NCBI RefSeq assembly: GCF_024345225.1
Contig: NZ_BROD01000001.1
Location: 930,001-994,000, forward strand
Source: Clostridium sp. TW13
GTDB lineage: Bacteria > Bacillota > Clostridia > Clostridiales > Clostridiaceae
Reading direction: 5' to 3'
Length of the DNA: 64,000 bases
In this document: positions 8,455 to 63,740 of the stretch, piece by piece
How the letters are laid out: the number at the start of each line of letters is the position of its first letter
How positions within the stretch are numbered: the first letter of the stretch is position 1
The notes under the pieces: model-generated
Database searches by the model: none
Told to the model about the DNA's origin: nothing
The model's input: only the letters and a program-made list of their open reading frames with translations
Translations under genes and position numbers: made by a program

Positions 8455-9483
8455 ATGAATATAAGAGAGAAAAATCAAAGTTTAGAAGAGTTGACATTGA
8501 TTAAAGAGGCTAAATGTTCAAAGGACACCTTAGGTAGAGTGTTTAAGGAACAGGAAGATGATATAAGAACTGTCTTTATGGTGGATAGGGACAGAATTAT
8601 TCATTGCAAATCTTTTAGAAGGTTGAAACATAAGACTCAAGTATTTATAAAAACTTCTGGCGACCATTATAGAACGAGACTTACTCATACTATTGAAGTA
8701 TCACAAATTGCAAGAACTATAGCTGTAGGAATCAGAGTTAATGAATATCTAGCAGAAGCAATTGCCATGGGGCATGATTTAGGGCATGTAGCTTTTGCAC
8801 ATACAGGAGAAAGTGTATTAAATAGTATGCTTAAAGATGGATTCAGGCATAATGAGCAGAGTGTAAGAATAGTATCTAAATTGGAGAATGATGGAAAAGG
8901 TCTGAATTTAACAAGAGAAGTTATAGACGGAATACTCAATCATAGTGGATTTAGCAATGAATTTTCTGAAGCTAAGACTTTGGAAGGACAAATTGTTAGA
9001 TTTAGTGATAAGATTGCATACGTAAATCATGATATTGATGATTCTATTAGAGCTGGTTTACTATCAGAAGAAGAATTACCTAAAGATATAGTAGAGATTT
9101 TGGGGAAAAGTAATAGTGAAAGAATAGACACTTTAGTTCATGACTTAGTTAATAATACTATTAGAAATATAGAAAATAATGAGGTTAAAGTATCCTTAAG
9201 CAAAGAAAAAGGAGAAGCTTTAGCTGAACTTAGAAAATTTATGTTTAAAAATATTTATCTTGGGGATATCTTAGATATAGAAAGAAAAAAGGCTAGTTTT
9301 GTTATTGAAAATGTGGTAAAATATTATTTCGTCCATCCTGAGCAAATGCCACTAATTTATAGGAATATAGCTGAAGAAGAAGGAATAGAGCGAGGAGTTG
9401 CAGACTACATAGCAGGAATGAGCGATGATTATTGTCTTAGCACATTTAATAAAATTTATGTACCTAAAATTGTGGTATATTAG
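8455..9483 (+). CDS. dgt: dGTPase-like HD phosphohydrolase
   Basis: Dgt-type enzymes hydrolyse dNTPs to the deoxynucleoside plus triphosphate. The HD metal site is spread over [32 protein letters not shown] and a later NHDIDD. The 342-residue length matches the shorter Gram-positive class. The start follows AAGGAGGGG. Location directly before dnaG and rpoD is the usual clostridial order. Exact nucleotide specificity cannot be read from the sequence. Confidence 0.9.
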
Positions 9484-23693: not shown

Positions 23694-24051
23694 TGCGAGT
23701 AAGCCAGGCAATCGCTGCTAAGTTTTACTTAGGAGAGGAAAGTCCGAGCTCCACAGGGCAGGGTGCTGGTTAATGGCCAGTCGAGGTGACTCGAAGGAAA
23801 GTGCAACAGAGATATACCACCTTAAGGTTCACCAGAAACCTTAGGGAAAGGGTGGAAAGGTGAGGTAAGAGCTCACCAGCATATAGGTGACTATATGGCT
23901 ATGTAAACCCCACTTGGAGCAAGACCGAATAGAGGGGCATTATGGGATTGCCCGTCCCGCCTCCGGGTGTGTCGCTTGAGCCTATTGGCAACGATAGGCC
24001 TAGATAGATGATTGCTTAATACAGAACTCGGCTTATACGACTTATCTCGCA
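23694..24051 (+). ncRNA. rnpB: RNase P RNA (M1 RNA), bacterial type A-like
   Basis: This is the catalytic RNA of RNase P, which matures tRNA 5' ends. The conserved core GAGGAAAGTCCGAGCTCCAC and GTGCAACAGAGATA, and near the 3' end ACAGAACTCGGCTTA, are all present. P1 pairs GCGAG and TAAG at the 5' end with CTTATCTCGC at the 3' end. The about 358-nt length is normal. The final 33 bases are the prophage attachment core, so the present 3' end is partly supplied by the phage, yet P1 pairing is kept. Confidence 0.97.
24018..24050 (+). mobile_element. attL, prophage left attachment core inside rnpB
   Basis: The 33-bp core starts AATACAGAACTCGGCTTATA and ends GACTTATCTCGC. It recurs at 63850-63881 with a single missing base (the C at 24038). 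It forms the 3' end of rnpB. The integrase gene begins 30 bp beyond it. Integration into a structural RNA gene with 3'-end restoration is typical of tyrosine integrases. Confidence 0.93.
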
Positions 24052-24054
24052 ACA

Positions 24055-24089
24055 ATATAGCTAGTTTAACGACTAGCTATTATTTTTTT
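24055..24089 (+). terminator. Prophage-supplied terminator for rnpB
   Basis: ATAGCTAGT (24057-24065) pairs with ACTAGCTAT (24072-24080), followed by TATTTTTTT. It lies on the phage side of attL, so integration gives rnpB a new terminator. Its T-tract overlaps the stop codon and last lysine codons of the convergent integrase gene. Confidence 0.85.
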
Positions 24090-25246
24090 GCCACCAATTT
24101 GCCACCAAAAATATTATTTAATTTTTCTGTAGCATTTTTTTGCATCTCTTTATTAACATGAGCGTAAATATTTAAAGTTGTATTAATATCCTCATGCCCT
24201 AGTCTTGTTTGCACTGTTTTAAAATCCACACCTTGTTGAATTAATAAAGTCGCATTAGTATGTCTTAAGTCATGAAAACGAATAGTTTTATCTATTCCAG
24301 CAGCAGCTACAACCTTTTTTATTTTATTAGTGTAGTACATAGGGTGAATGTATTTTCCATTATCCCACCTCATGACTAGATCATAACTTTTATCATTAAA
24401 AATATTATTTTCATAGAACTCTCCGTATTCATTTTTTTTGAATTCTTGCCTTTTATTTAATTGAGTTAACATCTCTAAAAGTTCATTTGAAACATAAATA
24501 GTTCTGGTACTTCCTTTTGTTTTTGTAGTTTCCATGTAAGTGTGTCCGTAGTTATAAATTAAATTATTGTGAATGGATACCACATTTTCTCCGTAGCTTA
24601 TATCTTCCCAAGTCAACCCAGCTAATTCTCCACGCCTAAGACCTAGTTCTAAGGTTAATCTAAAAGCTACATAAAACATATAATCATATTCATTTTCTAA
24701 ATCTAAAGTTTTAATTAATAATGGTATTTCTTCAACTTCTAATACATCGGTTTGTTTTTTATTTCTCTGTGGTCGCTCAACGCCTTTGCAGGGATTGTTT
24801 TGTATCAGATGCAGTTTTATACTTCTTTCAAATATGGAATTACAAAGCGTATATATTCCTTGCAAAGTAGTATCGCTAATATTATTCTTTTTTATATCTA
24901 GTAACATTCGTTCTATATCTAAAGCGGTTATTTTATTTATTTCTTTAAAACCTAAATAGGGAATCAAATATTTTTTATTCATTTCTTTATATCTACTATA
25001 TGTCGTTATTTTTCTAAGAGGTTTTATATATTCCTCTAACCATTGTGTAGATACACTTGTAAAGTTAACTTTAGTAGGCTCAATATATCCTTTTTCAAAT
25101 TCGCTTATTGCATCACGGAGAGCCTTTTCGGCTTCTTTTTTTGTTTTAAAACCTCCTTTTTCTTTCTTTTTACGTTTCCCGTCGATTAATCCTAGGTTAA
25201 AATAGTAACTCCATGTGTCACCACGTTTCCTTACAGCACCTTTCAT
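24080..25246 (-). CDS. int: Tyrosine-family site-specific integrase
   Basis: This 388-residue recombinase integrates the phage into rnpB. It has an N-terminal arm-binding domain (KRGDTWSYYFNLGLIDGKRK, 6-50), a SAM-like core-binding domain (about 65-155) and a C-terminal catalytic domain. The catalytic residues are Arg in LELGLRRGELAGL, H-x-x-R in FHDLRHTNATLL, His in RLGHEDINTTL and Tyr in NIYAHV. ATG 25246 lies directly after GGAGGAAAA; ten upstream in-frame residues (to 25276) overlap the ribosome site. A terminator-like hairpin separates it from the small gene upstream. Confidence 0.95.
   Translation of the reverse strand: MKGAVRKRGDTWSYYFNLGLIDGKRKKKEKGGFKTKKEAEKALRDAISEFEKGYIEPTKVNFTSVSTQWLEEYIKPLRKITTYSRYKEMNKKYLIPYLGFKEINKITALDIERMLLDIKKNNISDTTLQGIYTLCNSIFERSIKLHLIQNNPCKGVERPQRNKKQTDVLEVEEIPLLIKTLDLENEYDYMFYVAFRLTLELGLRRGELAGLTWEDISYGENVVSIHNNLIYNYGHTYMETTKTKGSTRTIYVSNELLEMLTQLNKRQEFKKNEYGEFYENNIFNDKSYDLVMRWDNGKYIHPMYYTNKIKKVVAAAGIDKTIRFHDLRHTNATLLIQQGVDFKTVQTRLGHEDINTTLNIYAHVNKEMQKNATEKLNNIFGGKLVAKK
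24088..24108. repeat. Left pair of integrase arm-type sites
   Basis: TTGCCACCAA occurs at 24088-24097 and 24099-24108, 11 bp apart, inside the 3' end of the integrase gene and about 40 bp from the attL core. The same paired arrangement recurs near attR (63715-63735). This is the pattern of arm-binding sites for a tyrosine integrase N-terminal domain. Confidence 0.75.
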
Positions 25247-25266
25247 TTTTCCTCCTTCTTGGAAAT

Positions 25267-25293
25267 AAAAAGCCACTATTTAGTGGCTTTTTC
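25267..25293. terminator. Terminator-like hairpin between the RHH-like gene and int
   Basis: AAAAAGCCACTA and TAGTGGCTTTTT pair around two bases, overlapping the stop codon of the small minus-strand gene. Read in the integrase direction it has a T-run after it, so int would be expressed only by read-through, antitermination or another promoter. Confidence 0.7.
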
Positions 25294-25437
25294 TAACTCG
25301 GATAAGTAATTTTCAAAAATCATATTGCAAAAATTACTTAAAGTTCTTCCATCCTTTTCCGCTAACTCTATTAATTTGTCCTTTGTTGCTTTTTTTGAAA
25401 CAACCATGATTTTGTCTTTGTTCTCCGCAATAGCCAT
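25276..25437 (-). CDS. Small ribbon-helix-helix-like DNA-binding protein
   Basis: This 53-residue protein begins MAIAENKDKIMVVSKKATKD and continues with two predicted helices, the layout of Arc/CopG ribbon-helix-helix proteins: a basic strand and then a helix in GRTLSNFCNMIFENYL. It sits directly upstream of int on the same strand, so it could be a recombination directionality factor or an integrase regulator. Its promoter (25466-25494) contains two copies of a repeat shared with the divergent regulator promoter. The assignment is structural inference. Confidence 0.6.
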   Translation of the reverse strand: MAIAENKDKIMVVSKKATKDKLIELAEKDGRTLSNFCNMIFENYLSELEKATK

Positions 25438-25537: not shown

Positions 25538-25567
25538 TTGACGAGTGTATAACCTATATGGTAATAT
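25538..25567 (+). promoter_or_regulatory. Promoter of the HTH-TPR regulator with operator-like motif
   Basis: TTGACG (25538-25543) and TAATAT (25562-25567) with an 18-bp spacer form a probable promoter about 55 bp before the regulator start. The spacer begins with AGTGTATA (25544-25551), the reverse complement of the TATACACT core repeated in the divergent int promoter. A shared regulator for both promoters is inferred. Confidence 0.65.
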
Positions 25568-25624
25568 ATTGATATGGAATAAGTAAACTGAATAAATAAA
25601 AAATACTGTGGTTGGGGGAGAGCT

Positions 25625-26815
25625 ATGGAGACTAGACTTAAGCAAATAAGAAAAGATTTAAAAATAAAACAAGAAGAATTAGCTTGCCAAGGGCTAAGCA
25701 GAACTGCTGTGAGTAAGTTAGAAAATGGACAGAATAAATTAAAACGCAGGCAAGCAATAAAGTTAGCCAATAAAGCAGTTGAAGTGCAAAGGCAAAAAGG
25801 CATAATCTTAGATTACGCAATAAATTCCGATTTTTTAATGGGGATAGTGGCTTGCGATGTTGAAGAAATCCTTGCAAATTTAGATATAAATAATGAAAAA
25901 ACAATAGAGGAATTTGAAAATGCTCTTAGATTTATTGTACCAGAAGAACAAAAAGATATGTTAATGAAAGCAAATGAAAAGTTAGGAAAAGATTTATATA
26001 CAAGCAGTTCTTTAATAAAAACAAATTGTCTTAAATTAATTCATCTAAATCTTAATAGCAATGAAAGAATAGATAATTTTTTATTGTTAATTAAATCTTT
26101 TTATGCAACAGGAGATTATAAAAATGTAATTGATACTAGTAAGTTAATACAATACGATATCGAGATAATAAAAGACGAAAAGAAAAAACTGTCTTATTAT
26201 TATAATTTAGGAGTTGCATATTATGAAGAAAAAAATTATAGCAAGACTTTGCAAATACTCGAATTAATTAAAAAGTTAAAAATCAAAGAAAATATAGAAA
26301 CAGTATTGACTTTAGAAGCTAATACATTAACTATGCTAAAAAAATATGATGAAGCATTAAACATATATTGCAAAATAGTTCGCAGAACTAATGACGAGAA
26401 TCTAAAAGCTAACACTTATGCTAGTATTACTTATATATATACATTATTACATCATTACAAAACTGCAGAGAAATATATTGATAAAGCGTGTGCAAATATA
26501 AGTAATATTAGAATCTGGTACAAATATAATGTATTAAGCAATAAAATGATTTTACAAATTGCTAAAAAAGATACGGAAGAAAATGTTTTTAACACATTTG
26601 CAGATGTAGCATACTTACTTAGCAAAATGAACAATGAAAAAGAAGTGGTAAAAATGTATAATTATATTTTCCCGTTTTTTAGTAAGTCCGAATCATATTC
26701 ATATAAAATTTTAGAAATAATATTGAAAAAATGTAACTTGCCGATAGATGTAAGAATGATAAGTAATATAGTGAAAAGTTTTTCTTGCGACGATAAATTA
26801 CGTGGGTTATTATAG
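25625..26815 (+). CDS. HTH-TPR regulator, RRNPP/arbitrium-receptor-like
   Basis: This 396-residue protein has an N-terminal Xre-type HTH (residues 4-58, with QEELACQGLSRTAVSKLENG), then an all-helical region of about 300 residues rich in paired amphipathic helices such as LSYYYNLGVAYYEEKNYSKT and KYDEALNIYCKIV, i.e. TPR repeats. This layout and length match the RRNPP group (Rgg, PlcR, PrgX, NprR) and phage AimR. A secreted short-peptide gene follows 21 bp later, as in known receptor-peptide pairs. The start follows GGGGGAG. It lies divergently from the integrase transcript. Confidence 0.82.
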   Translation: METRLKQIRKDLKIKQEELACQGLSRTAVSKLENGQNKLKRRQAIKLANKAVEVQRQKGIILDYAINSDFLMGIVACDVEEILANLDINNEKTIEEFENALRFIVPEEQKDMLMKANEKLGKDLYTSSSLIKTNCLKLIHLNLNSNERIDNFLLLIKSFYATGDYKNVIDTSKLIQYDIEIIKDEKKKLSYYYNLGVAYYEEKNYSKTLQILELIKKLKIKENIETVLTLEANTLTMLKKYDEALNIYCKIVRRTNDENLKANTYASITYIYTLLHHYKTAEKYIDKACANISNIRIWYKYNVLSNKMILQIAKKDTEENVFNTFADVAYLLSKMNNEKEVVKMYNYIFPFFSKSESYSYKILEIILKKCNLPIDVRMISNIVKSFSCDDKLRGLL

Positions 26816-26836
26816 AAATGAAGGGTGGTGTTGGAA

Positions 26837-26959
26837 TTGAAGAAGAAAATATCAATACTTTTAGCTGGATTAATGCTAGCGTGTACATTTACAGTTGTGA
26901 ATCCTGCAACTAGAATAGTTTGTTTTAGTAATGATCCAGGTACAACAGAACCGTTATAG
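26837..26959 (+). CDS. Secreted pro-peptide, putative quorum/arbitrium signal
   Basis: This 40-residue ORF starts at TTG 26837, 8 bases after AAGGGTGG (GTG 26828 is an in-frame alternative). Residues 2-4 are lysines and 5-21 are hydrophobic (ISILLAGLMLACTFTVV), a typical Sec signal. The polar C-terminus ends FSNDPGTTEPL. In RRNPP systems such precursors are exported and trimmed to a 5-10-residue C-terminal peptide that re-enters via Opp and binds the TPR regulator encoded just upstream. LMLAC might alternatively act as a weak lipobox, as for enterococcal pheromone precursors. Its position and shape are strong; function is inferred. Confidence 0.7.
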   Translation: MKKKISILLAGLMLACTFTVVNPATRIVCFSNDPGTTEPL

Positions 26960-26985
26960 TATTAGAAATGTGACGTATTCGACAA

Positions 26986-27000
26986 GATGTGAGTCACATC
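26986..27000. promoter_or_regulatory. 15-bp palindrome, possible distal operator
   Basis: GATGTGA-G-TCACATC is a perfect palindrome about 25 bp after the pro-peptide stop. Its ATGTGA half-sites resemble those in the repressor operators near 27571 and 27661. No T-run follows, so it is more likely a protein-binding site than a terminator. Confidence 0.5.
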
Positions 27001-27063
27001 GAGTGTTGTAAAAGCATTCCTATAGTTGTAATATATTTGTAACGCAACTTTGGGGGTGCTTTT

Positions 27064-27174
27064 ATGTTAAGGCAGAGGTTATTAAAATTTAAAAAAATTA
27101 AACAATTAAAAGAAGAAGATATTCAAACCATAATTAATTATGTTGCAGAAAAGAAAAAAGCTAGTAAAAGCTAG
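27064..27174 (+). CDS. Small basic helical protein, unknown
   Basis: This 36-residue ORF starts MLRQRLLKFKKIKQLKEEDI after GGGGGTG, with helical and strongly basic character. It ends in a bidirectional terminator shared with the convergent repressor gene, which supports a real transcript end here. It is not recognised. Confidence 0.45.
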   Translation: MLRQRLLKFKKIKQLKEEDIQTIINYVAEKKKASKS

Positions 27175-27181
27175 CTTTTTT
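27155..27181. terminator. Bidirectional terminator
   Basis: AAAAAGCTAG pairs with CTAGCTTTTT around a 6-base loop, between the convergent small ORF and the repressor gene. A- and T-runs on both sides allow action in both directions. Confidence 0.8.
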
Positions 27182-27533
27182 CTTTTATTTTTTTGTCTAT
27201 TTGTAATTTAACAGCGTATGCGATAAGTTCTTCTGTATCGGGATCTATATTATTTACATCAGTGATAATATTACTTTCTATTAGTTTATCTATTAATTTA
27301 TCTACAACAGCTAGAGAAGCTTTATCATTTCCTTCTATACAATCAATATCATCCAAATCTTCAACAGTAACATTAAAAAATTCTGCTATAGCTTTAGCAG
27401 TTTCTAAAGTAGGAGTTCTTTTATTAGTTTCATACATTCTTATGCTACTTCCAGAAATATTTAATTCTTTTGCAAGTTGATTTTGCGTTAAATGCTTACT
27501 ATCTCTTAGTTTTTTTAACACTTCACCTTTCAT
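27171..27533 (-). CDS. Xre-family repressor (CI-like)
   Basis: This 120-residue protein has an N-terminal HTH (KLRDSKHLTQNQLAKELNIS then GSSIRMYETNKRTPTLETAK, residues 6-58) and a short C-terminal helical part with no peptidase domain. It is therefore not a LexA/CI-type self-cleaving repressor. It faces a Cro-like gene across a 205-bp region containing operator-like repeats, the classical lysogeny switch. Induction probably needs an antirepressor, e.g. the Rha-like protein or the peptide-sensing regulator. Confidence 0.85.
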   Translation of the reverse strand: MKGEVLKKLRDSKHLTQNQLAKELNISGSSIRMYETNKRTPTLETAKAIAEFFNVTVEDLDDIDCIEGNDKASLAVVDKLIDKLIESNIITDVNNIDPDTEELIAYAVKLQIDKKIKEKS

Positions 27534-27570
27534 ATTAATACCTCAAAACATATACTTTTTTATCGATTAT

Positions 27571-27711
27571 ATCACATTGTGTGACAAAATTAAAGAGAAA
27601 CTTAATAATTCAAAGCAAATGATATAAACCAAGTAATCGAACAAGCCTATTTTTGTCAACGATGTGATAAAAGTGATACTAAGGTTTTGAAAATATCACT
27701 GTGGGTGATAT
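27571..27711. promoter_or_regulatory. Lysogeny-switch operator region
   Basis: Between the divergent repressor and Cro-like genes three related sites are visible: TTTTGTCACACAATGTGATA (minus strand, near 27571-27590), TTTTGTCAACGATGTGATAA (plus strand, near 27651-27670), and the palindrome ATATCAC-TGTGG-GTGATAT (27693-27711). GTGAT also repeats at 27664 and 27673. The shared ATGTGATA half-site suggests cooperative repressor binding over both promoters. Confidence 0.65.
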
Positions 27712-27738
27712 TATAATAACTGTAAGGAGGTTCAAAAC

Positions 27739-29809: not shown

Positions 29810-30859
29810 ATGATAAAAGGATTTAAAGTATTTGAAAATGATTGGACATGTAGGGAATATCAATACGAGGTAGGTAAGACTTTTAAACATGAAGGAAATA
29901 TCGAAATGTGTGGAGCAGGATTTCACTTTTGCCAAAAGGCTAGTGATTGTTTTAATTACTACAGTTTTAACAGCAACAACAAAGTCGCAGAAGTTGAAGC
30001 AGTAGGACATGTAGAAACTAGAGAGGATAAATCTGTTACAGATGAATTGAGAATAGTTAGAGAAATAAGCTGGCAAGAGTTATTAACTATAGTTAACACT
30101 GGCAAAGATTGCACAGGCTTAAATAATAGTGGTAACAGGAATAGTGGTGACTGGAATAGTGGTAACAGGAATAGTGGTGACAGGAATAGTGGTAACAGGA
30201 ATAGTGGTAACGGGAATAGTGGTAACGGGAATAGTGGTGACTGGAATAGTGGTAACAGGAATAGTGGTGACAGGAATAGTGGTAACAGGAATAGTGGTAA
30301 CGGGAATAGTGGTAACGGGAATAGTGGTAACAGGAATAGTGGTGACAGGAATAGTGGTGACTGGAATAGTGGTGACTGGAATAGTGGTGACAGGAATAGT
30401 GGTGACTGGAATAGTGGTAACAGGAATAGTGGTAACGGGAATAGTGGTAACGGGAATAGTGGTAACAGGAATAGTGGTGACAGGAATAGTGGTGACTGGA
30501 ATAGCACTAACCGATCTAGCAATGTTTTTTCTACCAAACAAGAAAAACTTAAGATATTTGATAAAGAAACAGATATGACATTCGACGCATGGAGAAACAG
30601 CGAAGCTTGCAGTATATTAGCTTGGAATTTTAACTCTACAGTTTGGATATATGAAGAAAATATGACAGACGAAGAAAAAGAGAAACATCCTTCTTATAAA
30701 ACTACAGGCGGTTATCTTAAAGAGTTTACATTTAGAGAAGCATGCAAAAATATGTGGGGCTGCCTAACCACAAGAGAAAAAGAAGTTATTGAAAATATAC
30801 CTAACTTTGATAATGATAAATTCAAATCAATAACAGGTATAGAGGTAGAAAAAGAATGA
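29810..30859 (+). CDS. DUF7666-like protein with a pentapeptide (NSGNx) minisatellite domain
   Basis: This 349-residue protein has an N-terminal domain common in phage proteins (KGFKVFENDWTCREYQYEVG, with CGAGFHFC; residues 1-100). Residues 106-230 are 25 perfect-register pentapeptides NSG[N/D][R/G/W], like PF01469-type beta-solenoids of PPE-MPTR proteins. A conserved C-terminal part with WIYEENMTDEEKEKHPSYKT follows. The start follows AGGAGG. Its stop overlaps the sigma factor start (ATGA). Function is unknown; the solenoid may be a length-variable spacer or binding surface. Confidence 0.8.
   Translation: MIKGFKVFENDWTCREYQYEVGKTFKHEGNIEMCGAGFHFCQKASDCFNYYSFNSNNKVAEVEAVGHVETREDKSVTDELRIVREISWQELLTIVNTGKDCTGLNNSGNRNSGDWNSGNRNSGDRNSGNRNSGNGNSGNGNSGDWNSGNRNSGDRNSGNRNSGNGNSGNGNSGNRNSGDRNSGDWNSGDWNSGDRNSGDWNSGNRNSGNGNSGNGNSGNRNSGDRNSGDWNSTNRSSNVFSTKQEKLKIFDKETDMTFDAWRNSEACSILAWNFNSTVWIYEENMTDEEKEKHPSYKTTGGYLKEFTFREACKNMWGCLTTREKEVIENIPNFDNDKFKSITGIEVEKE
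30125..30514 (+). repeat. 15-bp coding minisatellite (25 units plus one degenerate)
   Basis: The unit AATAGTGGTAACAGG (variants GAC for AAC and GGG or TGG for AGG) is repeated 25 times without indels from 30125 to 30499, followed by a degenerate copy. Units 2-7 and 8-13 are an exact higher-order duplication (DW-NR-DR-NR-NG-NG) of 90 bp. Every reading frame on both strands stays open, producing artefactual ORFs. Confidence 0.97.
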
Positions 30860-53343: not shown

Positions 53344-55599
53344 ATGATACAAGTATATAATGCAGGCAATACAAATTTTAATGTAAATGGAGATATGGTG
53401 ATCCAACCTATAAGCGTTATTTTAAGTAATCAAATTAATATTATTCCTTCCTTAGAAATGGAATTAAGTTACGATGAATATGGTGTTTGGGAATATGTAA
53501 AAGAAGATTGTGTAATTAAATGCAATACTCCTTATGGAGAAGATTTATTTCGAGTTTACAATACTGTTAAAAATGATGATACCTATACAGTTTATGCAAA
53601 ACATATTTTCAGTGATCTAATAGATACAGTAGCGAAAGATATGAGTAATGATGATATATGTATCGTAAAAACAGGAAACGCAACAGGGCAACAAGCAATA
53701 GCAAAGCTATTTAATAACACAGATTTTACTGGACATAGTGATATATTGAAAACTGATAGTGTAGTTTGGGAAAGAAAATATATAACTACAGCATTACTTG
53801 GAAATGATGATAATTCATTCTTAAAACGCTGGGGTGGTGAATTATATATAAACAAATTTGATGTTTATATGTATAACCAACTTGGCAGTGATAATAATAC
53901 ATTAATTTCCTATGGTAAAAACCTAGAAAGTATAGAAGAAGAAATTAAGATTGATGAAGTAGTTACTCGTATAATTCCAGTTGGCGCTAATGGACTAAGG
54001 CTAACAGGTCAAACACCGTGGATAGATAGTCCTAACATAAATAAATATTCTAATATAAAAGAAAAAGTAGTAGAGTTTTCTAATGTAAAAGTTAAGGAAA
54101 AACCAGAAGATGAAGAAGGATTTGCAACAATAGATTTGGCAAGAGCGGAACTGATAAGACTTAGTAATCTTATGTTTAGTGAGCAACATGTAGATACCCC
54201 AAGTGTAAATATTAAAACTAACATGACAGATATTAGAGATTCTATAGAATACCAACAACTAGGCTATTCTGGAGTAGAAAAGATAGGATTAGGAGATACA
54301 GTTACATGTAGACATTACAAACTTGGGATAGAAACTAAGGCAAGAGTTATTTCTTATAAGTGGGATGTTCTAACAGAAAAGTTTGTAGAGATTGAAATCG
54401 GTGATACTCAACTTAATTATTTTGACAAGCAGACGGATATAAGCAATAAAGTTAGCAAAGTTCTAAATGATAATGGTAATGTTATTGCAGAATATGTCCA
54501 AGGAATTATAGATGCAACTAAATCTAAATTTAGAGCATTAAAGGACGTGGCACAGACACAGCATATAAGAGCCATGTTGTTCGAGGATTTAGACAGTTCT
54601 AGTCCGACTTTTGGCGCAATGTGTTGTGGCACGGCTGGGTTTGAAATATCGAATAAAAGAAACTCGGATGACACTGATTGGAACTGGACCACTTTCGGTA
54701 CTGGGAAAGGCTTTGTAGCAGATTGTATTACAGCAGGAACTATAAATGCTAATCTAATAAAAGCCGGAATATTAAGTGCTATAAAGATACAAAATCAAGA
54801 TGGTTCTTTCATAATGGATTTAGGCGGTACTGGTGGTTTAACTTGTAAAAGAAATGGTCAAAATTCCTTGTCTATAGAGGGAAGTCATATAAATTTTTAT
54901 AGATTCGATGATAGCGGAAAATATAGTGGCAGTATTGGTACTACAACAATAATTGGAGATAACACTAAACAAGCAATAAATATATACAACGATAAAGGTT
55001 CTTATGTAACAATTGGATATATAGGGGGCGATGGTAACATCCACTCATATATGGACTTTGATGAAAGCCAAGTTGAGTCTACAAATAAGCGTAGTATAAA
55101 TTTTTGGAAAAATGCAATGTTGCACAATGGAGCTTGTTTATATATAGGAGATGTAGATAATTGTTATTTAACATCGTCTTCTACAGGCGGAGCGTATTTA
55201 GGAGGAGATATGTATGTAAGCGGAACATTAAGTGCTGGTGGTAGTAAAACAAGAGTAGTAGACACAAGTCAAGGTAAAAGAGGACTTAATGCATATGAAA
55301 CTCCAAACGCATTATTCGCAGATTATGGACATGATACATTAGACAGTAATGGAGAATGTACTATTAATATAGATACTTTATTTTTAGAAACAGTAACAGC
55401 AAGTGAAGGCTATGAGGTGTTTTTAACTAAATACGGAAAAGGTGATATTTGGGTGGAAGAAACAAATGATACAAATTTCAAGGTATGCGGTGAGCCTAAT
55501 TTAAAATTCAGTTGGAATATTGTACTTAAGCAAAAAGGATATGAAAATACACGGTTACAAAAAATAGATGTAGGAGATGCTAAGAATGAGACCATTTAA
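53344..55599 (+). CDS. Tail-associated Tal/tail tip protein
   Basis: This 751-residue protein has an N-terminal hub domain of the prophage tail endopeptidase/gp44 type (residues 1-370, e.g. IIPSLEMELSYDEYGVWEYV; GYSGVEKIGLGDTVTCRHYK). A long beta-rich C-terminal part with repeated gly-rich turns follows (ADCITAGTINANLIKAGILS). It binds Dit and carries receptor-binding elements. AGGAGGG precedes the start. Confidence 0.88.
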   Translation: MIQVYNAGNTNFNVNGDMVIQPISVILSNQINIIPSLEMELSYDEYGVWEYVKEDCVIKCNTPYGEDLFRVYNTVKNDDTYTVYAKHIFSDLIDTVAKDMSNDDICIVKTGNATGQQAIAKLFNNTDFTGHSDILKTDSVVWERKYITTALLGNDDNSFLKRWGGELYINKFDVYMYNQLGSDNNTLISYGKNLESIEEEIKIDEVVTRIIPVGANGLRLTGQTPWIDSPNINKYSNIKEKVVEFSNVKVKEKPEDEEGFATIDLARAELIRLSNLMFSEQHVDTPSVNIKTNMTDIRDSIEYQQLGYSGVEKIGLGDTVTCRHYKLGIETKARVISYKWDVLTEKFVEIEIGDTQLNYFDKQTDISNKVSKVLNDNGNVIAEYVQGIIDATKSKFRALKDVAQTQHIRAMLFEDLDSSSPTFGAMCCGTAGFEISNKRNSDDTDWNWTTFGTGKGFVADCITAGTINANLIKAGILSAIKIQNQDGSFIMDLGGTGGLTCKRNGQNSLSIEGSHINFYRFDDSGKYSGSIGTTTIIGDNTKQAINIYNDKGSYVTIGYIGGDGNIHSYMDFDESQVESTNKRSINFWKNAMLHNGACLYIGDVDNCYLTSSSTGGAYLGGDMYVSGTLSAGGSKTRVVDTSQGKRGLNAYETPNALFADYGHDTLDSNGECTINIDTLFLETVTASEGYEVFLTKYGKGDIWVEETNDTNFKVCGEPNLKFSWNIVLKQKGYENTRLQKIDVGDAKNETI

Positions 55600-57361
55600 T
55601 ATAAATGCAGACTTATATAATAAAGGTTGCTACTCTTTAGAGTGCAAGCAAAACGATGATATAGTCTTAAATCTTAATATTTTGGAAAATGGAGTAGCAA
55701 GTGATTTAAGCAATGCTACTTTTTCTTTTAACTTTAGGAAACCGGACAATACAATAGTATCCATAGTAGGCAGTAACATAAGCGCCAGTGGAAACACAGT
55801 AACTATTATATGCCCTACGGATTGTACTAGAGTGCCTAGTACTGCATATTGTGAATTAACAATAGTTCAAAATTCTAAACAAATAACAACGTTTGATATT
55901 GCTATAAATGTACTACCAAGCGTATTCCAAGGACAAGAAGTAAGCAAAAATGTGGCTACTCTGATAGAAGAAATTAATAATTCTAATGTAACAGTTACAA
56001 ATCTTTTAAATGCTTTGATTAATTGGCAGGCTAATAATGGCAGTGTTATAGACTTAAATAATAGATTTAACAATATGAAAATAGGCGTGAGAAATCTATT
56101 ATTGAATAGTACTGGCAACTTAGGCACTAATTATTGGCAAAATGGAATTATATCAGAAACAAAATATAGTTTTCAAAGTTTTAGAATTTCAAATACTTTA
56201 ACAACACAAGAATTAAATTATAGTTCTTATAGAATAGCTTTAAAACCAAATACTACCTATACAATAAGCTTTTATGTAACAGCGGATAGCAATTTAGTAA
56301 GTACAGACATGTTTGTTTTATGTAGAAAAATAAATTCTACGCAAACATTTGATTATATTTATTCAAAGACGAATTTAATGCCTTCGGTAAATAATTTTGA
56401 TTATGTGGTTTGGCAGTTTACAACCGCAGCAGATGTGCAAGATGGATATATAAGATTAGACAATAATGGTACAAAAACAACTGGTGTTGCTTCGAATGTT
56501 TGGTTTAGTCGAATAAACCTAGTAGAAGGTAATAAATCTCCTATAGATTGCCTTCCAGCGCCAGAGGATACACAATTACAAATTGACTCAATTAAATCTG
56601 CTTTACCTAACAAAGCAGATAAAACTTATGTAGATAATTTAATTTTAACAACTAAAGGCAAGTGCCGGTTTATAGCACACCGAGGATTAAATGTGGTAGC
56701 ACCAGAAAACACCTTGCCAGCTTATACCGCGGCAGGACATTTCGGATTTTGGGGAGCGGAAACAGATGTAACGACCACTGCGGACGGTGTTTGGGTGGTT
56801 ATGCACGACGATACAGTAGATAGGATGGCAACAGGAACCGGCAATGTAAGTTCTTTAACTTTGGCGCAAATAAAAGCCTTAAATATAGATGCAGGAAGTT
56901 TCTACAATGCTTATCCTAACTTAAAAATACCGACTTTTGAGGAGTATCTTTTAACTTGTAAGAAAAACGGTTTAGTTCCTATCATAGAGATCAAAATAAC
57001 CGCGGACATTACAAAAATATCAAATTTGATAGCAATATTAAAAAAATATGATATGGAACAACATGTAATTATCATTTCTTTTGGTCTTAATTTTTTACAA
57101 GAAGTTAGAAAATATAGCAATGTAAAAATCCAATACATTGTAAACAGTATAACAGCAGATACTATAAATTCAGCAGTGGCACTCGGTAACGCTGGTATAG
57201 ATTCTAGTTATACAAGCGTAACACAACAAAATATAGTAGACTCGCATAATTTGGGAGTCGAAGTCGGGGCTTGGACGGTTGACGATTTTAATGCTTGTCT
57301 GCAATTGGTTAACTGGGGTATAGATTTTATAACAAGTAATTCGGTAGGGGGGATGGAATAA
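55586..57361 (+). CDS. Receptor-binding protein: BppU domain + carbohydrate-binding-like + GDPD
   Basis: This 591-residue tail protein begins with a BppU-type N-terminus (residues 1-110, NADLYNKGCYSLECKQNDDI). A jelly-roll, carbohydrate-binding-like middle follows (about 160-330), and a C-terminal glycerophosphodiester phosphodiesterase from about residue 357: FIAHRGLNVVAPENTLPAYT, ETDVTTTADGVWVVMHDDTV and IEIK. The GDPD may cleave glycerol-phosphate teichoic acid during adsorption. ATG 55586 is 9 bases after AGGAG; ATG 55577 is too close. Confidence 0.87.
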   Translation: MRPFNINADLYNKGCYSLECKQNDDIVLNLNILENGVASDLSNATFSFNFRKPDNTIVSIVGSNISASGNTVTIICPTDCTRVPSTAYCELTIVQNSKQITTFDIAINVLPSVFQGQEVSKNVATLIEEINNSNVTVTNLLNALINWQANNGSVIDLNNRFNNMKIGVRNLLLNSTGNLGTNYWQNGIISETKYSFQSFRISNTLTTQELNYSSYRIALKPNTTYTISFYVTADSNLVSTDMFVLCRKINSTQTFDYIYSKTNLMPSVNNFDYVVWQFTTAADVQDGYIRLDNNGTKTTGVASNVWFSRINLVEGNKSPIDCLPAPEDTQLQIDSIKSALPNKADKTYVDNLILTTKGKCRFIAHRGLNVVAPENTLPAYTAAGHFGFWGAETDVTTTADGVWVVMHDDTVDRMATGTGNVSSLTLAQIKALNIDAGSFYNAYPNLKIPTFEEYLLTCKKNGLVPIIEIKITADITKISNLIAILKKYDMEQHVIIISFGLNFLQEVRKYSNVKIQYIVNSITADTINSAVALGNAGIDSSYTSVTQQNIVDSHNLGVEVGAWTVDDFNACLQLVNWGIDFITSNSVGGME

Positions 57362-60501: not shown

Positions 60502-60779
60502 ATAGCAGATATGAAAAAGATGAAATAGACATTAATAAAACAATAATTAAAGGAGTTGCAATTACAGTAGTATCATTAGTTACTATAAAGTTCATGCCAC
60601 TTTTAGGTATAAATGCAGCTATAGGAAATGGTGTAACTTGGATTACTGGAGGGACAAGAGTTGCAGATGGCTTTATGATCCCAAACTATTTTAAAGCATT
60701 AGTAGGCTTAATGTTTGGAGTGGATGTTTACTGTGTTGTGAAGAAAGATAATAGCAATTTTAAGAAGGTTAGAAGATGA
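60498..60779 (+). CDS. Membrane protein of the right-end module
   Basis: This 93-residue protein has two hydrophobic segments (IIKGVAITVVSLVTIKFMPL; YFKALVGLMFGVDVYCVV). It overlaps both neighbours by 4 bases, so it is translated in one coupled block with the FtsK-like gene. It might anchor that ATPase at the membrane. Not recognised. Confidence 0.65.
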   Translation: MNSRYEKDEIDINKTIIKGVAITVVSLVTIKFMPLLGINAAIGNGVTWITGGTRVADGFMIPNYFKALVGLMFGVDVYCVVKKDNSNFKKVRR

Positions 60780-62056
60780 TACCAGCTATTGCATTAGTGC
60801 CAGTTGCAGTTGGGTTAGGGAGTTATGCTAGTTACTTATATAAAAGTACAGCATATATTAGAAGGTTTAAGGAAGATTTTAATAACATTATGATAGCTAC
60901 AGGAATAGAAAACAAAAACCATGAAACATTTAAAATAGTAGATATTCATTCTAAAAATTATGGATTAGAGGTATTTTTAAATGTACCAGATGGCTTATCT
61001 ATAGAACATTTGAATAATAAGCTGAATATTTTACAAGATAATTTTAATGGAATTGTAGAGTTAGAAAAAGATAGATTTAAAAATTATATACAACTAGATT
61101 TAATAACTAAAGATATAGCCAAGTATCAATTTACGCCAGTTAAAGCTAAAGAAAGTGAACTGTCATTAGGCAAGGACTATAAAGGACGAGATTTCCTTTT
61201 AGATGTAAATAAAAACCCACATTTAGGTATATTCGGGACTACTGGAAGTGGCAAAAGTTTCTTACTAGCAAGTATTTTAAGCAACCTTTTATACAATTCT
61301 GCTGATATGGTAGACATTTATTTAAATCAAGTTGTAAAGAGCGAACTAGCTTGTTTTAGGGATTGCAAGGGCGTTAAATTCACAGCAACTACATTTTTAG
61401 AAGTAGATTTAATATTAGATAAGATACGCCTAATATTGGAGAATAGAAGTGAGTTATTCGATGTATACGGAATTAGAAATATAACTCAATACAATAAGCA
61501 TTATCCTAAGCGGAAATTAAAACGAATATATTTCGTCATAGAAGAAATTAGTTTCTTTATGGAGGAAGGATTTCAGTATATATGGAATAACTTATTATTA
61601 ATTGCCAAAGCTGGGAGAGCATTGGGTATACATCTTATTTGCGCTAGTCAGAGAGCGGTGGCAACCGAAATTAATCCAACATTTAAGCAACAACTAACTA
61701 AAGTTTGCTTACAAATGTCTTCTTTAGATTCAGTTAATATATTAGGCGTAGGTGATGCCAAAGACCTTAAAGAAAGAGAAATTCTAATTTTAACAACTAA
61801 GGGATTTATAAGGACGAGCTCACCATGGATAGACGAAGATTATAGGATCCTGCATAATTTCATTAAAGAAATTCACATTCCCAACCATGATAAAAAAGAG
61901 CCTACCAAACCAGTTTTATTATTATCTAGTCCGGCTACAAAGAAAAAGGACAGTAAAGATATTACCATTGTAGATGTACCATTTAAAGAAGAACCCCCAA
62001 AAGATAAAAAGAAACGCAAAGGCGAAATAGATATTGACGAATGGAGTGATTTCTAA
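60776..62056 (+). CDS. FtsK/SpoIIIE (TcpA-like) DNA translocase ATPase
   Basis: This 426-residue protein has an N-terminal hydrophobic stretch (AIALVPVAVGLGSYASYLY), then an FtsK-type motor domain with Walker A GIFGTTGSGKSFLLA, Walker B IYFVIEEISFF and ICASQRAVATEINP ([14 protein letters not shown] region). A lysine- and aspartate-rich tail follows. The length and architecture fit TcpA/Tcp-coupling or plasmid/ICE FtsK-like proteins rather than chromosomal FtsK. It stands just before a replication-relaxation-like gene. ATGA overlap with the previous gene. Confidence 0.85.
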   Translation: MIPAIALVPVAVGLGSYASYLYKSTAYIRRFKEDFNNIMIATGIENKNHETFKIVDIHSKNYGLEVFLNVPDGLSIEHLNNKLNILQDNFNGIVELEKDRFKNYIQLDLITKDIAKYQFTPVKAKESELSLGKDYKGRDFLLDVNKNPHLGIFGTTGSGKSFLLASILSNLLYNSADMVDIYLNQVVKSELACFRDCKGVKFTATTFLEVDLILDKIRLILENRSELFDVYGIRNITQYNKHYPKRKLKRIYFVIEEISFFMEEGFQYIWNNLLLIAKAGRALGIHLICASQRAVATEINPTFKQQLTKVCLQMSSLDSVNILGVGDAKDLKEREILILTTKGFIRTSSPWIDEDYRILHNFIKEIHIPNHDKKEPTKPVLLLSSPATKKKDSKDITIVDVPFKEEPPKDKKKRKGEIDIDEWSDF

Positions 62057-62643
62057 TGCTTACAGAACGTGACACAAAGGTTTTAAAATGGATAGAAGAT
62101 AATAAGGTTATTACTATAGAAGAAGCTAGATACATGTTTTTTGAGGGCAATTATAAGGTATGTTGGAGAAGGCTAGACCAATTAGAACAAATGGAGATTT
62201 TAAAGAGTTATAAGAATAAATACGATGGTAAAAAAGTTTATTACCAAGATAAGAAAATCAGCAGTCATGATTTATTTATTCATTACTTTTTGGGAGAAAT
62301 TTATAAAAGAGGTGGAGAATTACTGCAAATAAAGTATCAGCCAAGATACCTAAATGACCTCATTCGCCCCGATAGCTTTTTAGCTTTTAAATGGAACAAT
62401 AGAGTATTTTTAATACTATTAGAAGTGGATTACACTCATTTCACTGATACAAGCAAATTCATTCTTTATGAAAAGATGTTCAAAGAGGACTCTCTAGGAA
62501 CAATAAAAAAATTCGGAACATTCCCCAAACTTTTAATAGTAAGACCAAATCTAAATACTACTAGATACAGTAGTAAAAACTTTGAGGTGATCTATACCAC
62601 GCTTAATTATAAAAATTTGGACGAGTTCTTGTTTATTACCTAA
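62056..62643 (+). CDS. Replication-relaxation-like (PF13814-type) protein
   Basis: This 195-residue protein has an N-terminal winged helix (LTERDTKVLKWIEDNKVITI; NYKVCWRRLDQLEQMEILKS) and a C-terminal core with LLEVDYTHFTDTSKFILYEK and FGTFPKLLIVRPNL, which resembles the Replic_Relax family found beside FtsK-like ATPases in plasmids and ICEs. It starts in the FtsK-like stop (TAATG). Whether it initiates replication, nicks or only binds DNA is not known. Confidence 0.68.
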   Translation: MLTERDTKVLKWIEDNKVITIEEARYMFFEGNYKVCWRRLDQLEQMEILKSYKNKYDGKKVYYQDKKISSHDLFIHYFLGEIYKRGGELLQIKYQPRYLNDLIRPDSFLAFKWNNRVFLILLEVDYTHFTDTSKFILYEKMFKEDSLGTIKKFGTFPKLLIVRPNLNTTRYSSKNFEVIYTTLNYKNLDEFLFIT

Positions 62644-63693: not shown

Positions 63694-63735
63694 AAATTGG
63701 TGGCAAGTTTAATTTTGCCACCAATTTGCCACCAA
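63694..63735. repeat. Right arm-type integrase sites
   Basis: TTGCCACCAA occurs at 63715-63724 and 63726-63735 (11-bp step, as on the left), and inverted at 63697-63706. The inverted pair forms a perfect 13-bp palindrome arm AAATTGGTGGCAA/TTGCCACCAATTT. The recurrence at both prophage ends indicates arm sites bound by the integrase N-terminal domain. Confidence 0.75.
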
Positions 63736-63740
63736 AAAAG

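Follow-up and report, generated by a model that had tools for sequence, protein, structure and literature searches.

A putative arbitrium-like peptide communication module of a clostridial RRNPP lineage in a Clostridium prophage

Results

A prophage of Clostridium sp. TW13 was found to carry a small module which very probably contains a phage-borne receptor-signal pair of the RRNPP type. The module lies in a window of 64,000 bp (the whole stretch of DNA analyzed, contig NZ_BROD01000001.1, positions 930,001 to 994,000) and coordinates refer to this window unless otherwise given. Control of lysis and lysogeny is its probable role. As judged from sequence, it is likely to be an arbitrium-like peptide communication module of a clostridial RRNPP lineage, in which host sporulation commitment would probably be read too. 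Confidence falls in the order phage RRNPP pair, lysogeny control, Spo0A input and the sign of each effect.

Prophage Setting and Extent of the Module

The prophage is 39.7 kb in size, appears intact and is bounded by two copies of a 26-bp repeat, which start at 24086 and 63713. The attL repeat (TTTTGCCACCAATTTGCCACCAAAAA, 24086-24111, other copy 63713-63738) is the longest exact match between the prophage ends. It follows rnpB (23696-24053), which encodes the RNase P RNA, by approximately 33 bp, and this places the insertion point of the prophage. Terminase, portal, protease, major head, tape-measure and tail genes are encoded. An FtsK/SpoIIIE-like protein (phrog_1358) and its neighbor (phrog_9996) are present as unusual cargo at the right end of the prophage (60776-62643). 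A tail-region protein has a phosphodiesterase-like C-terminal part (phrog_19279, 55577-57361). The protein encoded at 29810-30859 contains a long NSGDWNSGNR-type repeat, and the repeat DNA keeps other frames open on both strands.

A tyrosine integrase is encoded on the minus strand at 24080-25276 (Phage_integrase 8.1e-29, phrog_1 2.2e-82), next to a small RHH/Arc-like ORF on the same strand (25276-25437) with weak matches to RHH_5 and Arc-like PHROGs. The receptor and peptide ORFs are on the plus strand and are divergent from the integrase, as originally described. Beyond them are a tiny ORF and, convergent with it, a CI-like repressor gene of 120 codons on the minus strand (27171-27533; HTH_3 2.3e-18, phrog_8 2e-18). 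Inverted repeats with TATCAC/GTGATA half-sites are located in the divergent region between the CI-like gene and the early genes (27568-27713).

The original prediction had confined the cassette to 25538-26959. The start can be kept, as it is the -35 of a promoter-like site, while the end has to be moved since the functional unit appears to reach approximately 27533. The third gene, the convergent CI-like gene, a hairpin hiding a Shine-Dalgarno (SD) sequence and a Spo0A (0A) box were all outside its account.

Receptor

The receptor gene (25625-26815, plus strand) encodes an RRNPP-type protein of 396 aa, identified from Pfam matches, a predicted model, structural matches and homologues. The candidate promoter of the receptor-peptide operon, TTGACG-N18-TAATAT (25538-25567, plus strand), came from a consensus scan and is only indicative, as such matches occur near chance level. 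The N-terminus matched HTH_3 above the gathering score (Pfam E 2.8e-5). Several TPR matches in Pfam were weak and sub-threshold. The predicted model, built from 31 clostridial relatives, had a mean pLDDT of 88.5 and was nearly all helical. Its best structural matches were TPR superhelices. These included NprR (Z 19.4, rmsd 6.9-7.6, 272-303 residues), RapI (Z 19.0, rmsd 4.3, 258 residues) and the phi3T Rap protein (Z 18.4, rmsd 7.2, 281 residues). Since generic TPR proteins reach equally high scores (LGN, Z 21.6), the structural matches show fold and not family, and the likeness to NprR-NprX and Rap-Phr is one of a common TPR fold. The receptor is thus predicted to consist of an HTH domain and a TPR superhelix. 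An HTH-TPR regulator of 396 residues had been proposed from the sequence, and the proposal was to be given up if no TPR fold was predicted; the HTH_3 match, the weak TPR matches and the predicted superhelix, with NprR and Rap proteins among the matches, all agree with it. Asparagines 194, 233, 302, and 306 are invariant across four related receptors, consistent with a peptide-binding ladder.

Relatives of the receptor were sought across the family, in 207 genomes that each represent one species. The best matches came from C. manihotivorum CT4 (34-35% identity), C. hydrogenum (31-33%) and C. acetobutylicum (approximately 22-24%), with independent E values of 3e-62, 1e-31, and 1.3e-16, respectively. 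The C. acetobutylicum genome is presumably that of strain ATCC 824. Against a profile of their own the four receptors scored E ≤ 1e-164 and the next clostridial RRNPP proteins only approximately 1e-20; the gap and not the E value carries the point, because the four receptors themselves built the profile. On these sequence scores the four receptors are one subfamily. Sampling of the wider class (391 genomes) gave no further members. In IMG/VR scans with the receptors the sole match was a 53.6-kb viral contig with a C. manihotivorum-type locus, and a scan with the CI-like protein gave no match. No full relative was found by tblastn in phage and plasmid records.

The window, C. manihotivorum and C. 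acetobutylicum prophages have the same gene order: integrase and small ORF on the minus strand, receptor, peptide, tiny ORF, CI-like gene on the minus strand and early genes. The integrase type differs among them (tyrosine or serine), with a serine integrase and an antirepressor in the C. acetobutylicum prophage. In C. hydrogenum the receptor-peptide pair is at the other (late) end of its prophage, and no tiny ORF was recognized at that locus. It had been asked whether the small ORF is conserved with the regulator, and the peptide gene does travel with the regulator in other prophages, in a conservation case of only four loci.

Signal Propeptide

The peptide gene (26837-26959, plus strand) begins exactly 21 bp past the receptor stop and encodes a putative signal propeptide of 40 aa (LKKKISILLAGLMLACTFTVVNPATRIVCFSNDPGTTEPL). 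It has a TTG start, and an alternative GTG start at 26825 would give a propeptide of 44 aa. The sequence has KKK, then a hydrophobic stretch predicted to be an export segment, and ends in FSNDPGTTEPL. The spacing, the length of 40 residues, the KKK, the hydrophobic segment and the NDPGTTEPL end were as read in the original prediction. The ORF is conserved with C. manihotivorum, and the alignment of the two propeptides was better than all of 5000 shuffles. The C-termini, NDPGTTEPL in the window and GEPGITDPI in C. manihotivorum, have [DE]PGxT[DE]P[LI] in common. Over the last nine codons all four identical residues differ synonymously, and changes at codon positions 1, 2, and 3 number 2, 2, and 8, respectively. 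This is as expected of a selected protein end.

Short, basic, hydrophobic ORFs are also known in general as toxins, and the small ORF could encode a type I toxin of this hydrophobic kind, or some unrelated peptide of the membrane to which the regulator does not respond. Such a product is very unlikely, as the conserved part takes in the polar C-terminus, with its synonymous codon changes, and most relatives of the window receptor also have an exported-peptide-like ORF downstream. A signal propeptide is therefore the preferred reading.

The propeptides of C. acetobutylicum (ending VIGSPSVS) and C. hydrogenum (ending GGPGGVSPAATEATLQIK) keep the export segment, and no recognizable match to the C-terminal motif was found in either. 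Such divergence is expected if signals diverge with their receptors. The case is also at its weakest here. The C. acetobutylicum receptor gene is followed by an exported-peptide-like ORF of 36 aa with a strong ribosome site (9126-9236 of that locus, minus strand). By position this receptor is probably CA_C1949. CA_C1949 is listed as an RRNPP-type regulator by Kotte et al. and is missing from their regulators with a peptide gene (PMC7376267).

Third Gene and Its Hairpin

A tiny ORF of 36 aa (27064-27174, plus strand) starts 104 bp after the peptide gene, in the position of aimX in arbitrium phages. It is similar to the ORF in the corresponding position of C. manihotivorum, with none of 5000 shuffles as good. 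The tiny ORF of C. acetobutylicum has no recognizable sequence similarity to it. A candidate promoter, TTGTAA-N17-TAATAT (27006-27034, plus strand), was identified from sequence and geometry. A hairpin at 27009-27064 (plus strand) would pair the tiny-ORF SD in read-through RNA. The SD would be hidden only in read-through RNA because the 5' arm of the hairpin is upstream of the inferred transcription start near 27042. With promoter and start positions inferred and pairing predicted, the probability that the SD is unpaired in the three phages is 0.00, 0.13, and 0.00 in read-through RNA compared to 0.65, 0.67, and 0.44 in RNA from the gene's own promoter. The hairpin would silence read-through translation, and so the tiny ORF is probably a genuine gene, transcribed from a promoter of its own.

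In phage phi3T AimR antiterminates the transcript from the aimP promoter, between aimP and aimX, and AimX is a protein of 51 aa (PMC10769878). By analogy the window receptor could bind the GTGAC-type inverted repeats after the peptide gene and antiterminate read-through from that gene, leaving the tiny-gene promoter unimportant. Hairpins are present at this position in C. acetobutylicum and C. hydrogenum, and that of C. hydrogenum has a T-run after it. The window hairpin, however, has no T-run after it, and antitermination would not relieve the hiding of the tiny-ORF SD by read-through RNA, which is predicted in all three phages. This mechanism is thus considered improbable, and expression of the tiny gene from its own promoter is preferred.

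Three other ideas on the tiny gene were rejected. As a mimic of the CI-like C-terminus it was matched by 1153 and 3464 of 5000 shuffles, and by 75 of 5000 in C. acetobutylicum. The likeness of its promoter to the receptor promoter, as a possible copy, was not significant (42 of 500 shuffles). Antisense RNA features in some arbitrium models; directed at the CI-like gene it is a weak candidate here, since the tiny ORF and this convergent gene share just 4 bp and a terminator-like hairpin (27149-27186) stands between them.

Spo0A Box After the Peptide Gene

The octamer TTCGACAA is invariant in all four loci, 18, 13, 20, and 23 bp past the peptide stop, in an intergenic region which has otherwise diverged. 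Its complement, TTGTCGAA, is a perfect 0A box on the minus strand (26978-26985) and contains TGTCGAA, the tested core of Spo0A sites, which is bound by Spo0A (PMC3485338). The core lies near a candidate promoter, as expected of a site regulated by Spo0A. From the -10 of the tiny gene to the start of the 0A motif there are 51 bp in the window, and 49 and 51 bp in two relatives. TGTCGAA occurs as a single copy in the whole prophage. In the 4.64-Mb genome TTCGACAA has 39 copies compared to 317 of its reversed control, approximately 8-fold rarer. Many of the host-genome copies sit in a dispersed repeat (TGGTGGACAAGTTACAAAAATTCGACAAAATTTTCACCAACATTTAGGTGGA). The 10-mer TATTCGACAA has four to seven copies per genome, one of which precedes spo0A in both C. 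acetobutylicum and C. hydrogenum. The spo0A promoter of the window's own host contains TTGTCGAAT.

The box is within inverted repeats, ATGTGAC/GTCACAT and the palindrome GATGTGAGTCACATC (26968-27000), which form a candidate operator. The palindrome is unique in the genome, even when one mismatch is allowed. Most of 30 genomic copies of the octamer examined are without a stem of at least 7 pairs, so arms are not a general feature of it. Rather than a Spo0A site, the octamer could belong to an operator at which the receptor or the CI-like repressor binds, or it could form a loop in RNA. The arms flank it in three of the four loci, and they resemble half-sites upstream of the CI-like gene, so that a repressor operator overlapping the 0A box is possible. 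That likeness was set aside as a lead only, as in such AT-rich DNA words of 7-9 bases are shared at close to the chance level. The octamer is constant while the arms vary between phages, was not found upstream of receptor genes or in the CI divergent regions examined, and equals both the 0A core and the sequence before three host spo0A genes. An operator or loop in place of a Spo0A site is therefore rather unlikely, and on this sequence pattern we lean slightly towards a functional 0A box.

Discussion

Comparison With Known Systems

The original prediction called the cassette arbitrium-like. As an analogy of architecture this stands, and as family membership it does not. The curated models NF038310 and phrog_1728 match phi3T AimR and none of the four receptors here, which rules out AimR membership and places the regulator outside the described AimR clades, as had been suspected. 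In hhalign the subfamily profile aligned to AimR with a probability of 2%. AimR chains were not among the structural matches listed, which says nothing about a difference in fold.

The layout is close to that of SPbeta and phi3T. In both the module is phage-borne, with receptors of similar size, a TTG-started propeptide a few bases later, a gap of approximately 100-130 bp and a tiny ORF. The phi3T locus has aimR (378 aa), 30 bp, aimP (43 aa), 132 bp and aimX (51 aa), and these sizes and spacings are nearly those of the window. The third gene after the peptide gene resembles aimX in position. The DPG motif, reported to be widespread in AimR-type peptides (PMC12700828), is also present in the window propeptide. 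The two differ in control. The tiny gene of the window has its own promoter-like site and the SD-hiding hairpin and is convergent with a CI-like gene, whereas phi3T has a terminator with antitermination, and no 0A box occurs between aimP and aimX in phi3T. In AimR operators the boxes are separated by 25 bp, and spacings of 23-28 bp are bound well (PMC6458997). The inverted arms here are 18 bp and 1 bp apart, in contrast to two 6-bp AimR boxes approximately 25 bp apart, and as an operator of the receptor they are a candidate only.

The nearest relatives outside the subfamily are HTH-TPR proteins of the Qsr/QssR kind, described in solventogenic clostridia with a downstream exported-peptide ORF (PMC7376267). 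Membership of that group has been defined by a minimum identity of 30% to a member, over 80% (PMC10075063). The clostridial relatives compared from outside the four had approximately 16-23% identity to the receptor, and to that extent Qsr/QssR membership seems less likely. Qsp peptides are described with a common C-terminal L, P, and W (PMC7376267), not found in the peptides here, and the Qsr/QssR loci are without TTCGACAA after the peptide gene.

RRNPP pairs in prophages are already known. RRNPP_detector predicted such pairs, one of them in C. acetobutylicum ATCC 824 (PMC10075063), and the module is a variant of the same kind. The passages covered of PMC10075063 and PMC7376267 make no mention of the tiny gene, SD hairpin or 0A box.

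Proposed Switch

In the proposed model the propeptide would be exported and trimmed to a C-terminal peptide of approximately DPGTTEPL, which would be re-imported and bound in the TPR groove of the receptor. The peptide-free receptor would favor expression of the tiny gene. The tiny protein, convergent transcription or both would then counter the CI-like repressor and lead to lysis. With many infections peptide would accumulate, the tiny gene would be turned off and lysogeny would follow. Phosphorylated Spo0A bound between the peptide gene and the tiny gene would bring the host's sporulation state into the decision. The direction of effect in this model is put a little short of an even chance.

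The pair might alternatively serve or manipulate the host (sporulation, solvent production) and not the phage's own choice between lysis and lysogeny, a role that has been suggested for some RRNPP pairs of prophages. A 0A box is present at the control point, and prophage pairs beside AbrB, Spo0E, or Rap homologues were reported with RRNPP_detector, one in C. acetobutylicum (PMC10075063). The C. acetobutylicum locus has a small protein, read as AbrB-like (antitoxin in PHROG), approximately 4 kb downstream. In three prophages, however, the module is between the integrase and the CI-like gene, where lysogeny is normally controlled. No sporulation gene was recognized among its neighbors in the window prophage, and the 0A box would have Spo0A acting on the phage and not the reverse. 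A host role is for these reasons considered unlikely, and control of the phage's own decision is preferred.

In the literature found, all arbitrium systems with an experimental description belong to Bacillus phages. More speculatively, the module may be a second, independently assembled phage communication system without AimR. Its output gene would integrate peptide and Spo0A, the phage would choose to lyse the host, to stay as a lysogen or to travel inside the spore, and the SD hairpin would shield the output gene from read-through. If true, a phage decision circuit of arbitrium architecture was assembled more than once, also in anaerobic spore formers. The module yields a short candidate signal peptide. 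The conserved 0A box gives the concrete hypothesis that temperate phages of spore formers make their decision depend on sporulation of the host. A version of the module is carried by C. acetobutylicum ATCC 824, a laboratory strain that is tractable, which makes the question directly testable.

A second RRNPP-type regulator, of 383 aa and followed by an exported-peptide-like ORF of 46 aa, is encoded approximately 0.8 kb downstream of the host's own spo0A (approximately 1506002-1508797 of the chromosome).
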